Assembly (NCBI GenBank): GCA_016793095.1
Contig: JAEUJQ010000036.1
Coordinates: 1 to 64,000 of the forward strand
Source of the DNA: Myxococcaceae bacterium
Lineage (GTDB): Bacteria > Myxococcota > Myxococcia > Myxococcales > Myxococcaceae
Reading direction: 5' to 3'
DNA length: 64,000 nucleotides
Numbering within the stretch: position 1 is the stretch's first letter; each line of letters starts with the position of its first letter. Position numbers and translations under genes: made by a program. Below are positions 48,732-53,600 of the stretch, piece after piece. The notes under the pieces are model-generated. The model worked only from the letters and a program-made list of their open reading frames with translations, was not told the origin of the DNA and did not search any database.

Positions 48732-49883
48732 TCACCAGGTGCGGAGTCCGCCATCCGCCAGGGTGCGCGGCGTCCGGTCGATCAGCACCCACAACGACTC
48801 CGCGCCTGCGGGCCCCGGCCAGAGCGTGTGCCAGCCGGTGGGCAGCCTCGGCGGTGACCACTCGAAGAGCCACTCGGCGTCAGCCGTCGAGAGGTTGACG
48901 CAGCCGTGCGTGACCGCCTGGCCGTAGCGGTTGTGCCAGGCCGCCGCGTGAAGTCCCTGGCCGCGCTCGAAGTACTGAATGAACGGCACCTCTTCGATGA
49001 AGTACTCGTCACCGCGCATGCGATCGTGCAGCGCCTTCACGTAGACGCGGTGGAGCCCGGTGCGGGTCCGCCGGTCGGTCTGGTTGCTCCCCGCCGAGAT
49101 GAGCGTCGCGAAGACGGGCGTCGCGCCCTCCCAGGCCGTCAGGGTCTGCTCCGCGAGGTTGACGTGCAGCCACGCGCCCCCGTCTGGCACGCCTTCTGGC
49201 TTCGCTTGCGGCCAGGCGATGCGCACGCCGCTCCCCGGCAGCACGCCTCCATCGACGTGAACCCCGCCGTCGCTCGTGAGCGCGAGCAGTGGAGCGCGCG
49301 CGTACTTCTCGACCGCGACGGAGCCATCGGGGCTGTCGGCGACGCGCAGGCTGGTGCGACGGAACGCGAAGACGAGCGGCAAGGCAGGCTCGCGTTCGCC
49401 GAGCATCGTCGAGTGATCGCGCAGGAGCGTGACGTCGTTCGTCGACACGAAGCCGCCGATCGGCCGCTCGAGCCAGCCCCGGCCGAGCAGGTCATCATCG
49501 CCGCCGAGCACGGCGAGCGTCTTCAGGCCCGGCTCCTCGACGAGCACTGACGCGTCGGGCTTCGGTCGGCTGCGCACCAGCACGCCCCCATCGCGGTCGC
49601 GCGCGACGACCCAGCGGTAGCGCGGGGGCTCGAAGGGAGCGCGGCCGCCGTCAGGGAAGGCGAGGACGCGGAGCGGCACCACGCCTCCCGCTCCGAGCAC
49701 CGCCCAGCCGCGAGGCGCGTCGCACGTCGGGACGCACGCCGTCACCGTCACTGGCGCGCTGCCCATGAGCGCCCCGATGACGGGCGCGCCAGCGTCGGGG
49801 CCCGCGAGCACGCTGGTCGGCGTCGTCACGACCGCCTCGCGCTCGGGCGCCGTCGCGATGAAGATCAACAGGGCGAGCGGCAT
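48732..49883 (-). CDS. L,D-transpeptidase (YkuD) protein
   Basis: The 383-residue protein has a short signal (MPLALLIFIATA), an SH3-like region (about 15-115, 'LVRSRPKPDASVLVEEPG'), and a YkuD domain (about 240-375) with 'HNRYGQAVTHGCVNLS' (catalytic Cys328, His326). L,D-transpeptidases form 3-3 peptidoglycan cross-links or attach proteins to the wall. ATG 49883 was chosen over a longer frame that covers the divergent phytase-like gene. It is probably co-transcribed with the ExbD-like gene. Confidence 0.87.
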   Translation of the reverse strand: MPLALLIFIATAPEREAVVTTPTSVLAGPDAGAPVIGALMGSAPVTVTACVPTCDAPRGWAVLGAGGVVPLRVLAFPDGGRAPFEPPRYRWVVARDRDGGVLVRSRPKPDASVLVEEPGLKTLAVLGGDDDLLGRGWLERPIGGFVSTNDVTLLRDHSTMLGEREPALPLVFAFRRTSLRVADSPDGSVAVEKYARAPLLALTSDGGVHVDGGVLPGSGVRIAWPQAKPEGVPDGGAWLHVNLAEQTLTAWEGATPVFATLISAGSNQTDRRTRTGLHRVYVKALHDRMRGDEYFIEEVPFIQYFERGQGLHAAAWHNRYGQAVTHGCVNLSTADAEWLFEWSPPRLPTGWHTLWPGPAGAESLWVLIDRTPRTLADGGLRTW

Positions 49884-49959
49884 CCCTGCCGACCCTACCT
49901 GAAGCGCGGAAGCTGCTCTGCTCGAGCCGCCGCGGCGGGCCTCGGGGTACGGTGCGGCC

Positions 49960-51919
49960 ATGCGTCGCCTGGTGGTGTCGGTGCTGCTCGCGGGCTGTGC
50001 GGCGAGGCCGGTCGTGCCTGCGCCCTCGCGGCCCGAGCGCGCCCGCCTCATCGCGCACGCAGTGCTTCCGGCGCGGACGTTCCTCGACGGGCCTGCGAGC
50101 GGCGCGCGCCTCGAGCCACGGTTCGGCGGCCCGTTCTCTGGCCAGCCCGTCCAGGGCTTCTCGTCGCTCCAGGTCCTGGGCGGCGACTTCGTCTCGATCA
50201 GCGACAACGGCTACGGCGTTCCCGAGAACTCGGGCGACTTCGTGCTCCGCGGGTGGACGTTGAGGCCTGACTTCGGCGCCGGCCGCCTCACCGCCACGCC
50301 GCGCTTCGCGCTCTCGGACCCGCTGCGCCACCTGCCGTGGCCGATCCGGAACGCGTTCACCACCGACCGGGTCCTCACCGGCGCCGACCTCGATCCAGAG
50401 TCGCTGGTCCGCGCGCCCGACGGCACCTTCTGGCTCGGGGACGAGCACGGGCCGTTCCTGGTGCACGTCGACGCCGCGGGGCGGGTGCTCGAGGCGCCCT
50501 TCGAGGTGCCGATCGACGGGGGCGTGCTCGCGGGGCCCGACTCGCCGTTCCTTCGCGCGAACCTGATGCTGCGCTCGCTCGAGGCGCTCCGGGCCCACGC
50601 GGTGGCGGCTGGCGCGAGCCCCCCGGTCGCCTCGATGGATCACCGCTGGCTCACGTCCGCCGAGCAGGTGCGCGCCCTGCACGTGGCGGGCTTTCGCGTC
50701 ATCCCGTGGACGGTGAACGCGCCCGCGCGCCTCGAGGAGCTGCTCCGGTGGGACGTGGACGGCGTCATCACCGACCGACCGGACCTCGCGGCGTCCTTCG
50801 CCCTCGCAGGCAGGGAGCTGCAGGGGCATCGAGGGGCACGCGGCCTGGCGCCCGAGAACACGCCGGCGGCCTTCGCGCTCGGCCTCGACGCGGGAGCGAA
50901 CGTGCTCGAGCTGGATCTCACGGGCACGGCAGACGACGAGGCGGTGGTGTGGCACGACGCGGCCCTCGCGCCGCCGAAGTGCGAGGGCGTTCCTGACGGC
51001 GGCCTGCTGATCCCCTCGACGAGGCTCGCGGTGCTGTCGCGGCTCGCCTGCGCGGGCACCCTCGCGGAGTTCCCGCTGCAGCGGCGCGACGCCGGCAGCC
51101 ACCGGCTGATGACGCTCACCGACGCGCTGCGGCTCCCGGGCCGGCTCAACCTCGAGACGAAGGTGCACGGCACCGGCCAGCCGCATGACGACGCGGTGTG
51201 GCTGACGCGGCTCCTCATCCGCCGGGTGCTGGAGGCCGACGCGGGCGCGCGGGTGACGCTGCAGTCCTTCGACTGGCGCTCGCTCGAGCTCGCCCACCGT
51301 GAGGCGCCGTGGCTGCAGACGGTCGCGCTGTTCGGCGATCGCTCGAGCCGGGCTGCCGACGACGCGCGGGCGGGGCTGCCCTGGCCAGAGCGCGCGCCTG
51401 CCGTGAACGTCTCGCGGAGCGCCGGCTTCGAGAACCTGGCCCTCGACGGCGATGGCCAGCACCTCGTCGCCATGCTCGAGAAGCCGCTGCCGGGCCATGA
51501 CGCCTGCCTGGCGTGGCGGTTCGACCTGACGACGAAGCGGTTTGGCCTCGCGTTCCGCTTCCCGCTCGACGCGCGGGCCACGGCGGTGGGCGATCTCGCC
51601 CTCGTGGACGAGCGCACCGGCTACGCCCTGGAGCGGGACGACACCGAGCGCCGGGCGGACGGCTTCAAGCGGCTGGTGCGCTTCACGAGATTCGGACGTG
51701 CTGGGCGCGGGGGTCACCAGGCACACCGCGGCGGACCTGCTCGACCTCGCGCTGCCCGACGGCGGCGTCTTCTCGTTCCCGTTCTGGACCATCGAGGGTG
51801 TGGCGCCGCTCGCCGACGGCCGCGTCGCCATCATCAACGACAACAACTTCCCCTTCGGGCGCGGGCGGTCGGAGACGGAGCCCGACGCGACGGAGCTGCT
51901 GCTCGTCGAGCCACGCTGA
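49960..51919 (+). CDS. phytase/esterase-like lipoprotein with inserted GDPD domain, frameshifted
   Basis: The protein starts MRRLVVSVLLAGC (lipobox Cys13). Residues about 60-215 are the first half of an esterase-like phytase domain ('GTFWLGDEHGPFLVHVD'). Residues about 222-278 look like the last strands of a GDPD barrel ('VIPWTVN', 'VDGVITDRPD'). Residues 287-470 hold the GDPD start with HRG (His290), Glu317/Asp319 and His332, the canonical catalytic spacing. The second phytase half begins near 485 ('GFENLALDGDGQ'). Near 51690 the frame must shift: the next codons in frame are Arg-rich, while the +1 frame continues the phytase pattern (SFPFWTIEGVAPLADGR, INDNNFPFGRGR) to a stop at 51917-51919. 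A sequencing error or a real lesion are both possible. Unshifted, the frame runs on into the next gene. Confidence 0.7.
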
Positions 51920-51963
51920 GCGGGAGGCGCCGAGCACCGGTATGCTGCGCCGGGGAGGAAGCC

Positions 51964-53202
51964 GTGGACCGACACGCTGCTGCGCTCGTCTGGAAGCTGG
52001 GGCTCGCCGAGTCCGAGGTCGCGCTGGTTCGCCGGAACGGCGAGGAGCGCTGGCGACTGCCCGGAGGCCCCCTGCTCGACGGGGAGCCGTGGAGCGCCGC
52101 GGCCCACCGCCACGCGAAGGCTGAGCTCGATCGCGCGCTGCGGGTGGGCGACTTCGTCGAGGCGTCCATCGACGGCGAACGGTCGCGCCTCTACTTCGAC
52201 CTCATCCTCGTTGACGCGGCGCCGGCCCAGTACGAGACCGCCTCGGGGCAGGTGTGCTTCGTCACCGCCGAGCGGGCGCTCTCGCTGCTCGACGACGGCC
52301 GTGATCAGCAGACCCTGCGCGTGCACCGCGCGCCCGCGCCGCTGAGGAGCGCGTCGCCCACGCCCGCGCAGCAGCTCCGGCTCTTCCTGTCCGGCCTCAA
52401 CGTGTCCTTCCGGCAACTGCAGCGGGCGCTGGCGTTGCAGTGGGCCGAGCAGCGTGCGCTCGAGGCGAACGGCATCACCGCTGCGAGCCGCCAGGCACGC
52501 GATGAGCTCGCCGCCGCCGAGGCCCTCGCCTGTGACGAGCCCGAGAGCGGCTGGGCGATGCTGAAGCGCGCGCGCCGCACGCAGCTCGCGGCGATGACGC
52601 CCGAGCGACGCCGCGCGCAGTGGCTGATCATTCGCGAGGAGGCGAAGCGGAAGCTCGAGCGCTCGTGGCGGGGCACCGCGGCCAGGGCCCTGATGGGCGG
52701 TGACGACGAGCCCTCGCCCGACGCGATGGCGGCGGTCGCCGAGCTGCTCGACGGCTACCACGACAGCTACTTCGACCGGGCCCGGCTGATACAGACCCGC
52801 CTCGCGCTGATGACGCTGTTGCTTTTTCTGGTGCTCACGGTCCTCGAGAGCGTGTGGTGGTGGAAGGGCTCGACCGACCAGCTGCTCTTCGGGGTGCCGC
52901 TGATGCGCGTGGCGCCGCTGCTCGGCGTCGTGGGCGCCATCTGCTCGAGCCTCGTCTCGTCGCTCGGGGCGAACTCGACCAGGCGGCCGCAGGTGATCGT
53001 GGACTCGATGCTGGTGTTCGGGCGGGTCGCGCTGGGCGCAGGCTCCGGGCTGGGAATGGTGTTGCTGCTGGGGACGACGGTCACCAGCGTCGAGGTGCTC
53101 GCGGCGCTGGCCTTCGTCGCCGGCTTCTCGGAGCGCGCGCTCCCAGCCCAGGTCGAGCGGCTCTTTGGCGAGCTCGACAACGGGCAGAAGGAGACGAAGT
53201 AG
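51964..53202 (+). CDS. degenerate Nudix domain fused to a membrane domain
   Basis: GTG 51964 sits behind GGGGAGGAA. The 412-residue product begins with a Nudix-like domain (1-115). Its box is G35-x5-E41-x7-R49-H-A-K-A-E54, so two of the catalytic Glu (REUxEE) are lost and hydrolysis is unlikely. A long helical region (about 150-275) follows, then three to four membrane helices (about 277-400, 'RLALMTLLLFLVLTVLESVW', 'VAPLLGVVGAICSSLVSSLG'). A domain that binds a nucleotide and signals to a membrane part is one idea. The upstream phytase-like gene is in the same frame only because of its frameshift. Confidence 0.75.
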   Translation: MDRHAAALVWKLGLAESEVALVRRNGEERWRLPGGPLLDGEPWSAAAHRHAKAELDRALRVGDFVEASIDGERSRLYFDLILVDAAPAQYETASGQVCFVTAERALSLLDDGRDQQTLRVHRAPAPLRSASPTPAQQLRLFLSGLNVSFRQLQRALALQWAEQRALEANGITAASRQARDELAAAEALACDEPESGWAMLKRARRTQLAAMTPERRRAQWLIIREEAKRKLERSWRGTAARALMGGDDEPSPDAMAAVAELLDGYHDSYFDRARLIQTRLALMTLLLFLVLTVLESVWWWKGSTDQLLFGVPLMRVAPLLGVVGAICSSLVSSLGANSTRRPQVIVDSMLVFGRVALGAGSGLGMVLLLGTTVTSVEVLAALAFVAGFSERALPAQVERLFGELDNGQKETK

Positions 53203-53237
53203 AGTCAGGTCACTCCTGCTCGGGACGACGAGACGCC

Positions 53238-53600
53238 ATGCCGACGCCACCAGACTTCGCGCGCGCCGCCGCGCTCACTGACGACGCGCTGCTCGCCGAG
53301 TGCGACGAGTCGTTCTTCATCGCTTCAGGGCCCGGCGGGCAGCACCGGAACAAGACCGAGACTGGCGTGCGCCTGGTGCACCGGCCGACCGGGCTCACCA
53401 TCACCGCCACCGAGCGGCGCTCGCAGTTGCAGAACCGGGGCGCGGCGCTCGAGCGGTTGCGGGCGATGCTGGAGAAGCGCGCTCATGTGGACAAGCCACG
53501 GGTCGCCACGAAGCCCAGCAAGGGAGCGAAGCGTCGCAGGCTCGAGGGCAAGCGGCACACGGCGGCCAAGAAGCAGAGCCGCCGCGGCGGGTGGGACTGA
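53238..53600 (+). CDS. GGQ-motif peptidyl-tRNA hydrolase (class I release factor-like)
   Basis: The 120-residue protein is a stand-alone release-factor catalytic domain. 'GPGGQHRNKTETGVRL' (about 34-49) contains the GGQ that hydrolyses peptidyl-tRNA, and a Lys/Arg-rich tail follows, as in ArfB/YaeJ and C12orf65 (mtRF-R) relatives. There is no codon-recognition domain. Such proteins rescue stalled ribosomes; the precise subgroup is not certain. It starts 35 bases after the Nudix-membrane gene and may be co-transcribed. The 143 bases after it, up to the convergent lipoprotein gene, contain two overlapping short stem-loops (GGTTC/GAACC) but no gene. Confidence 0.85.
   Translation: MPTPPDFARAAALTDDALLAECDESFFIASGPGGQHRNKTETGVRLVHRPTGLTITATERRSQLQNRGAALERLRAMLEKRAHVDKPRVATKPSKGAKRRRLEGKRHTAAKKQSRRGGWD

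Follow-up and report, generated by a model that had tools for sequence, protein, structure and literature searches.

Naturally permuted catalytic barrels are few, an established precedent being the GH70 glucansucrases, an unrelated enzyme family whose circularly permuted triosephosphate isomerase (TIM) barrel is not inserted in a propeller. Closer to the gene described here stand three kinds of protein: glycerophosphodiester phosphodiesterases (GDPDs, PF03009) of the type solved as 3ch0 from Cytophaga hutchinsonii, which run through their strands from beta1 to beta8; plain members of the phytase-like family PF13449 ('esterase-like activity of phytase'), in which the loop between the motifs 'RSPQNP' and 'GGFEGMA' is short; and propellers of cyanobacteria and Deinococcus, which carry a GDPD of ordinary order in the same loop. 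We analyzed a 64,000-nt stretch of DNA (the window, meaning this whole stretch) and in it the plus-strand gene at 49960-51919, which encodes a lipoprotein of a myxobacterium, a member of Myxococcaceae judging by its relatives. By sequence it holds all parts of a 3ch0-type GDPD, with the HRG, E-x-D, H and E-x-K motifs and the beta/alpha-barrel parts, but places beta6-beta8 before beta1-beta5, and it carries this whole GDPD in the loop that is short in plain PF13449 members.

In the excerpts of the literature covered here, the pairing of a GDPD with a phytase-like domain is already published for cyanobacteria. The domain pairing and permuted barrels as such have precedents. No description of a permuted GDPD was found in the portions of the papers searched (PMC9846622, PMC11098088, PMC12260270 and PMC4548154 included). 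The part covered of PMC13114784 (circular permutation, TIM barrel, domain insertion) does not mention phytase, phosphodiester or propeller, and in that of a polymorphic-toxin paper matched by 'circularly permuted' and 'glycerophosphodiester', GDPD stands only under immunity proteins and 'circularly permuted' is absent.

The last third of a GDPD barrel precedes its first two thirds

We refer to the product of window 49960-51700 as the window protein (P0001), and use two alignments, A1 with 12 rows (the window protein and 11 homologs) and A2 with 45 homologs. PF13449 matched the window protein with E 7.3e-35 in two stretches, the best being profile 1-118 of 284 at residues 62-199, and in the intact homolog L124 the second stretch covers profile 113-284 at residues 450-604 of 626; between the two proteins both halves of the profile are matched, in order. 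Between these halves, the C-terminal piece of the NCBIfam model PRK09454 (profile 194-244 of 251) lies at residues 226-277, and PF03009 (E 5.4e-31, 109 bits, cut-off 23.6) has its best stretch, profile 1-176 of 244, at residues 290-467, placing the last third of the GDPD domain before its first two thirds. Every A2 member matches both PF13449 and PF03009. Residues H290, R291, G292, E317, D319, H332, E399 and K401 are invariant throughout A1, and in A2 the catalytic set HRG, E-x-D, H and E-x-K is kept in 45/45 rows, the sole exception being an Asp-to-Asn change in L060. By analogy to known GDPDs, we take E317-x-D319 to be the metal and acid-base site and His332 the catalytic histidine.

When the GDPD of the window protein was rejoined in ordinary order (residues 284-476, then 200-283), PF03009 gave a single match over 1-244 of 244 at 118.8 bits. 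The native order reached 111.6 bits, spread over two stretches, and shuffling the second piece (a single shuffle) brought the rejoined sequence down to 71.8 bits. The two parts of the window GDPD thus cover one domain once, swapped and joined at the old ends, which is a circular permutation. The ordinary beta1-to-beta8 strand order was not found in it. The closest solved structure, 3ch0, tells the same: window residues 284-334 are matched by its residues 8-58 and, weakly, 398-453 by 137-192, whereas window residues 209-276 correspond to its residues 202-268, and the profile of the 45 homologs against 3ch0 is likewise reversed in order (E 4.1e-42). In distant permuted homologs the 'FDxQGHRG' start of 3ch0 is kept after the linker. 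GDPD_2, a model of the last part of the GDPD, matched the window protein in one stretch only (residues 250-275), and neither this model nor our own C-part hidden Markov model (HMM), which has one match in the window frame L130, found a second PWTVN-like piece after residue 470.

An earlier sequence-only reading had proposed the order phytase-like half, GDPD last strands, GDPD first strands, phytase-like half, with HRG (290), Glu317, Asp319 and His332 as the catalytic set and no PWTVN-like module after residue 470. The placements of PF13449, PRK09454 and PF03009, the invariance in A1 and the single C-part match agree with it on each count. It had also assigned the permuted piece to residues 222-278; their GDPD identity stands and a propeller origin is rejected, as they match 3ch0, whereas the start of the piece lies rather at ~199-200, with the cut between beta5 and beta6. 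Its proposal of a permuted barrel inserted in the domain of another enzyme is upheld by profile coverage, rejoining, 3ch0, conservation across phyla and a confident model. Because the same build is kept in several bacterial phyla, the order is a real, conserved arrangement, and we consider it confirmed that the window protein holds a circularly permuted GDPD, cut between beta5 and beta6 and inserted in a phytase-like propeller.

Predicted structure

A first model was computed for the window protein from 12 sequences; its mean predicted local distance difference test score (pLDDT) was 78.0, and in most of the GDPD part the block means lay at 82-98. A second was computed from 45 sequences for L124 (also listed as L006, being one gene; 74% identical in A1) and reached a pLDDT of 93.3 and a predicted template modeling score (pTM) of 0.91. 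In the numbering of the L124 model, which is the window numbering minus 27, there are strands at 196-200, at bridge residues 220 and 223, and at 241-244, 259-263, 288-295, 368-373, 405-409 and 426-431, which we read, on this model, as beta6, beta7, beta8 and then beta1-beta5, with propeller strands on both sides; the predicted beta7 consists of two single bridge residues only.

Aligned structurally with the L124 model (VIA-align), 3ch0 gave Z 18.6 and a root-mean-square deviation (rmsd) of 3.5 over 192 aligned residues, at model residues 229-450. Most GDPD structure alignments run from model residues 229-258 to 450, some starting at 214-217, and so take in mainly the beta1-beta5 part, as a sequential aligner gives, leaving barrel closure untouched. 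The C-terminal domain of Escherichia coli YjiK (3qqz) aligned with Z 20.2 and rmsd 2.8, 227 of 243 residues being aligned and the first and last aligned residues being 2 and 625. Strictosidine synthase and SMP30 propellers likewise have first and last aligned residues near the model ends (the ends alone being known), and these alignments, spanning the GDPD insert, support a propeller fold for the phytase-like part. The GDPD part of the family profile also matches PDB entries 7ww4 and 7wwc, whose chains are named beta-1,3(4)-glucanase (7ww4, E 6.8e-11), and 7ww4 aligns structurally with the GDPD part (Z 16.7, rmsd 1.9, 150 residues), which is unexpected from its name; no paper for 7WW4 with glucanase was found in the literature searched.

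Distribution of permuted, plain and propeller-less forms

We scanned the best 80 of 566 relatives from named genomes. Because propeller motifs served to find them and similarity to the window protein to rank them, the shares below are not prevalences. By segment HMMs, 38 of the 80 loci run completely through propeller, GDPD(C), GDPD(N) and propeller without a break in the frame, which answers the call of the sequence-only reading for a search for homologs of the same order. The others comprise one with the order split in two frames (L045), one truncated (L098), 28 plain propellers, 11 loci, all cyanobacterial, with GDPD(N) matches inside the propeller and no permuted C-part, and one from Nocardioides (L111) with a GDPD fused behind the propeller. 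By name, the permuted loci belong to Myxococcota, Pseudomonadota (Chitinimonas, Chitiniphilus, Chitinibacter, Derxia and a metagenome-assembled genome [MAG] of Lysobacteraceae among them), Bacteroidota (Aquimarina, Tenacibaculum, a Cesiribacteraceae), Actinomycetota (Solirubrobacter, Patulibacter), Planctomycetota, Acidobacteriota (Sulfidibacter), one MAG named Cyanobacteria (RYN_339), and an uncultured bacterium.

In a set of 60 genomes that includes the window's own (G000), the order stands in one frame in 12 (G000, G001, G003, G005, G006, G009, G010, G018, G019, G021, G022, G023), counting the window copy up to its frame slip and the others to the gene end; G004 holds it in two frames and G035 has the form without propeller. 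Among whole-genome samples, which count the genomes they are centered on, the permuted form is in one piece in 16/195 Myxococcota (own genome included) and in two pieces in G004. Full-length permuted matches, their order verified with our own segment HMMs, occur in 9/200 genomes of the Chitinimonas order, 2/199 Planctomycetota, 1/296 Bacteroidota (the center genome) and 1/244 Cyanobacteria (RYN_339). With the window protein as query, no relative turned up among viral contigs. Some copies are decaying: in L160 (G129) most of the GDPD is lost and the propeller pieces stand in two frames, L011/L045 (G004) is split between frames, and L098/L220, planctomycetal, has a truncated frame. In Acinetobacter soli (L085) a GDPD-like frame lies just upstream of a plain propeller gene.

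The permuted barrel also occurs without a propeller. In all 16 genomes of one genus of the family (g26), the profile is matched only over the GDPD part, with E up to 1e-30; the permuted order was verified in 14 of them, the exceptions being G114 and G127, matched through both parts in profile order. The open frame of G127 has 1191 residues, and three of the g26 matches hold one stop. A signal-like start is present in those propeller-less permuted sequences that were inspected. A cyanobacterial genome holds a further propeller-less permuted GDPD, a 457-residue frame (L219, G524:C82) lacking HRG and the E-x-D site, which is a degenerate, probably non-catalytic relative.

Conversely, plain propellers of Acinetobacter, Parabeggiatoa and G133 are nested among the permuted hosts. 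That of G133 stands beside a permuted host in the propeller tree (support 96 in the Shimodaira-Hasegawa-like approximate likelihood-ratio test, SH-aLRT), and since its short loop retains a stretch resembling the final part of the linker of the insert (L140/L165 compared with L132), it likely lost its barrel.

Outside the window, the same genome encodes a 369-residue GDPD-like protein (L173/L207, G000:C65:71489-72595, minus strand) with a C-part at 212-247 before an HRG part at 263-312. Its cut lies, by eye, between beta2 and beta3 and so differs from that of the window protein. No other of the 96 family genomes has a whole-length match to it, and a relative in G109:C21 has its parts in ordinary order; it is possibly a second, independent permutation.

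A possible two-step release of phosphate

The reading we favor, with a probability of roughly three in four, is that of a secreted lipoprotein with a complete GDPD barrel, permuted between beta5 and beta6, in the propeller loop between 'RSPQNP' and 'GGFEGMA', and with a likely role in two-step phosphate release. The barrel would split glycerophosphodiesters outside the cytoplasm into glycerol-3-phosphate and an alcohol, the propeller would then remove phosphate from such monoesters, and a single anchored protein would in this way release phosphate as a diesterase followed by a monoesterase. Such a role seems to us the most likely one, and the idea of a lipoprotein with two activities is plausible. 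The cysteine of a lipobox is the one that is lipidated, and lipid anchoring of the window protein would follow from the motif at the end of its signal (Table 1).

An activity of the propeller is proposed because of the family name and the expression of related cyanobacterial genes. In the sections of PMC9846622 covered here, a Nodularia 'atypical alkaline phosphatase (esterase-like activity of phytase family protein)' changes by log2 5.53 and 3.82 after 7 and 14 days of phosphate limitation, and the cyanobacterial gene nsp6490, which would belong with the propellers that carry an ordinary GDPD, changes by 4.63 and 5.45.

Several points weigh against this picture. The expression data concern the cyanobacterial kind and not a permuted member; for the permuted protein, we infer both enzyme activities and the hand-over of substrate. 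That the barrel closes within a single chain is deduced from a predicted model. The neighbors of the gene, ten proteins in three loci, include no common partner and show no phosphate-starvation context. For the distant homolog L054, which has long insertions, rejoining the GDPD made next to no difference (94.3 compared with 94.1 bits, two stretches both ways). No tandem intermediate of the kind invoked below was seen in the permuted lineage itself, and within the window's genus the window copy is frame-slipped, that of G004 is split, and G002 holds a fragment only.

It is also possible, if clearly less probable, that the architecture is as described and that only the GDPD is enzymatic, the propeller being a scaffold or binding domain that holds the substrate or anchors the barrel. 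The best propeller structure match, 3qqz, is titled without an activity, and g26 does without the propeller altogether. On the other hand, the propeller acids D55, D118, E120, E480, E532, D534, E586 and D601 (A2 numbering) are invariant or at least 90% conserved, plain propellers are common (28/80 best loci) and therefore do something alone, and the Nodularia phytase-like protein is not only named an atypical alkaline phosphatase but is induced by phosphate limitation, as the available part of its source has it (PMC9846622).

Evolutionary history of the inserted barrel

Our trees are quick searches without bootstrap, with long-branch warnings; near-copies (12 loci, by hand) were dropped before the whole-domain GDPD tree and the propeller tree. 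In the whole-domain tree (82 rows, parts set in ordinary order), the permuted rows, 42 inserted and 6 propeller-less (6 of the 12 fetched propeller-less loci being used), form one clade with SH-aLRT 95, joined by the ordinary-order GDPDs L153-L158 with SH-aLRT 87, which supports an ancestry shared with unpermuted relatives. To exclude an effect of the reordering, a tree of beta1-beta5 only was made; it separates 65 permuted rows from 39 others with support 97 and holds some repeats of one genome. Because the permuted copies form one clade in the GDPD trees, the permutation probably arose once.

The cyanobacterial and Deinococcus propellers share with the permuted proteins the loop and the domain pair. 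They differ in that their GDPD is of ordinary order and another subfamily, is sometimes present as two copies in tandem, and is inserted before 'RSPQNP'. This motif follows the GDPD there (between the copies in tandem cases) and precedes it in permuted proteins; in the window's own clade it is changed. By Pfam, PF03009 1-244 runs in one stretch in L096 and in three Deinococcus plasmid proteins, and L121 scores 329 bits in two stretches, the best over 1-244. The Deinococcus plasmid loci L225, L226 and L227 carry one of two annotations, glycerophosphodiester phosphodiesterase or esterase-like phytase family protein. Two GDPD matches lie between the propeller halves in 4 of the 11 cyanobacterial loci among the 80 best and in four further loci (L221-L224). 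In the GDPD tree, the GDPDs of cyanobacterial propellers form a distant clade, and in the propeller tree the nine hosts from cyanobacteria group together in a single clade (100) next to plain propellers, the permuted hosts being mixed with some plain ones. Because the cyanobacterial hosts and their GDPDs stand apart from the permuted ones in these trees, GDPDs probably entered this propeller loop at least twice.

The permuted form probably originated from two tandem GDPD copies, the first truncated at the front and the second at the back. Such arrays do occur among the ordinary GDPDs in the same loop of cyanobacterial propellers, which are of the other subfamily and not ancestors. Tentatively, and well short of even odds, one may go further and see in the loop a recurrent acceptor of GDPDs, which in cyanobacteria and Deinococcus received an ordinary GDPD on one or more occasions, sometimes in tandem, and separately one that was permuted in place by duplication and truncation. 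The permutation would rotate the barrel about its axis with respect to the propeller; the active site could then face the propeller funnel and hand over glycerol-3-phosphate for a two-step scavenging of phosphate.

A still more doubtful history has the permutation arise in a free-standing GDPD that was inserted in the propeller later, the propeller-less form of g26 being the older. Such a form does exist, and the whole-domain tree gives its position inside the permuted clade without resolution. However, the inserted form is found in seven named phyla, whereas among the genomes examined the intact propeller-less form is confined to one genus, the other propeller-less copy being the degenerate one of a cyanobacterial genome.

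Chain closure and the integrity of the window copy

The two GDPD pieces might instead complete each other between chains of a domain-swapped dimer. Swapped order would in principle permit such pairing in trans, and our single-chain models are compatible with this. We consider it very unlikely in view of the confident single-chain prediction for L124, with pLDDT mostly above 90 in both GDPD pieces and only ~15 residues between beta8 and beta1, and favor a barrel that closes within one chain. That the order is an artefact (an assembly chimera, fused pseudogene fragments or two broken GDPDs), as the window's frame slip, the split copy of G004 and the fragment of G002 might hint, is next to impossible, given that 38/80 best named loci from several phyla, and unbroken relatives too, show this order within a single open frame; a chimera in particular is rejected, the order being the same in many genomes.

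The sequence-only reading had the protein continue in the +1 frame, and this holds. The last 76 codons lie at 51689-51916 in that frame and match PF13449 246-284 weakly (E 0.0069, 16.7 bits, cut-off 27.6). Codon-position identities to L006 are 0.825/0.847/0.568 before the slip and 0.789/0.842/0.618 after it, so the region 3' of the slip still evolves as coding sequence, as conserved as the rest. Among six other genomes of the window's genus, the frame is unbroken in G001, G003, G005 and G006 and split in two in G004, and G002 holds a fragment only. With the frame after the slip conserved and intact homologs continuous, the slip is, judging from these comparisons, recent or a sequence error.

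Features of the gene

The features of the gene are collected in Table 1. Downstream, a plus-strand frame at window ~51964-53202 has a weak NUDIX match (E 0.00099, 19.6 bits, cut-off 21.1) and, owing to the frame slip, forms one 1080-residue open frame with the gene. Opposite the gene, a 1199-residue open frame at window 49651-53250 (minus strand) is probably a by-product of high G+C.

Table 1. Features of the permuted GDPD-propeller gene (window coordinates; residues of the window protein)
Feature	Position	Strand	Evidence
Lipoprotein signal with lipobox LAGC at its end, putative lipidated Cys13	49960..49998	+	C13 invariant in 12/12 A1 rows
First half of phytase-like (PF13449) beta-propeller, residues 28-187	50041..50520	+	PF13449 1-118 at residues 62-199; own segment HMM
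GDPD barrel C-terminal part, placed first (helix, beta6, beta7 'VIPWTVN', beta8 'GVITDRPD'), residues 200-283	50557..50808	+	PRK09454 194-244 at 226-277; 3ch0 202-268 at 209-276
GDPD barrel N-terminal part, placed second (beta1-beta5, catalytic set), residues 284-476	50809..51387	+	PF03009 1-176 at 290-467
HRG motif, residues 290-292	50827..50835	+	Invariant: 12/12 A1 rows, 45/45 A2 rows
E317-x-D319	50908..50916	+	Invariant in A1; A2: Glu 45/45, Asp 44/45, Asn in L060
His332, putative catalytic	50953..50955	+	Invariant in A1 and 45/45 A2 rows
E399-x-K401, third barrel strand	51154..51162	+	Invariant in A1 and 45/45 A2 rows
Propeller second half, first piece, residues 482-573	51403..51678	+	PROPC segment HMM; homolog L124: PF13449 113-284 at 450-604
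Frame slip (+1), private to the window genome	51679..51688	+	Intact homologs read straight through; downstream frame still conserved
Propeller end in +1 frame, 76 codons and stop	51689..51919	+	PF13449 246-284/284 at residues 12-54 of P0002, E 0.0069, below family cut-off; homologs conserve it

Implications

Annotations such as 'esterase-like activity of phytase family protein' are shared by proteins of different architecture. Depending on the bacterium, one and the same propeller loop houses the permuted or the ordinary version of an enzyme family, and with the tandem arrays and a genus of propeller-less permuted proteins alongside, the duplication-and-truncation model of circular permutation becomes testable on natural proteins, as does the reason for permuting an inserted domain.
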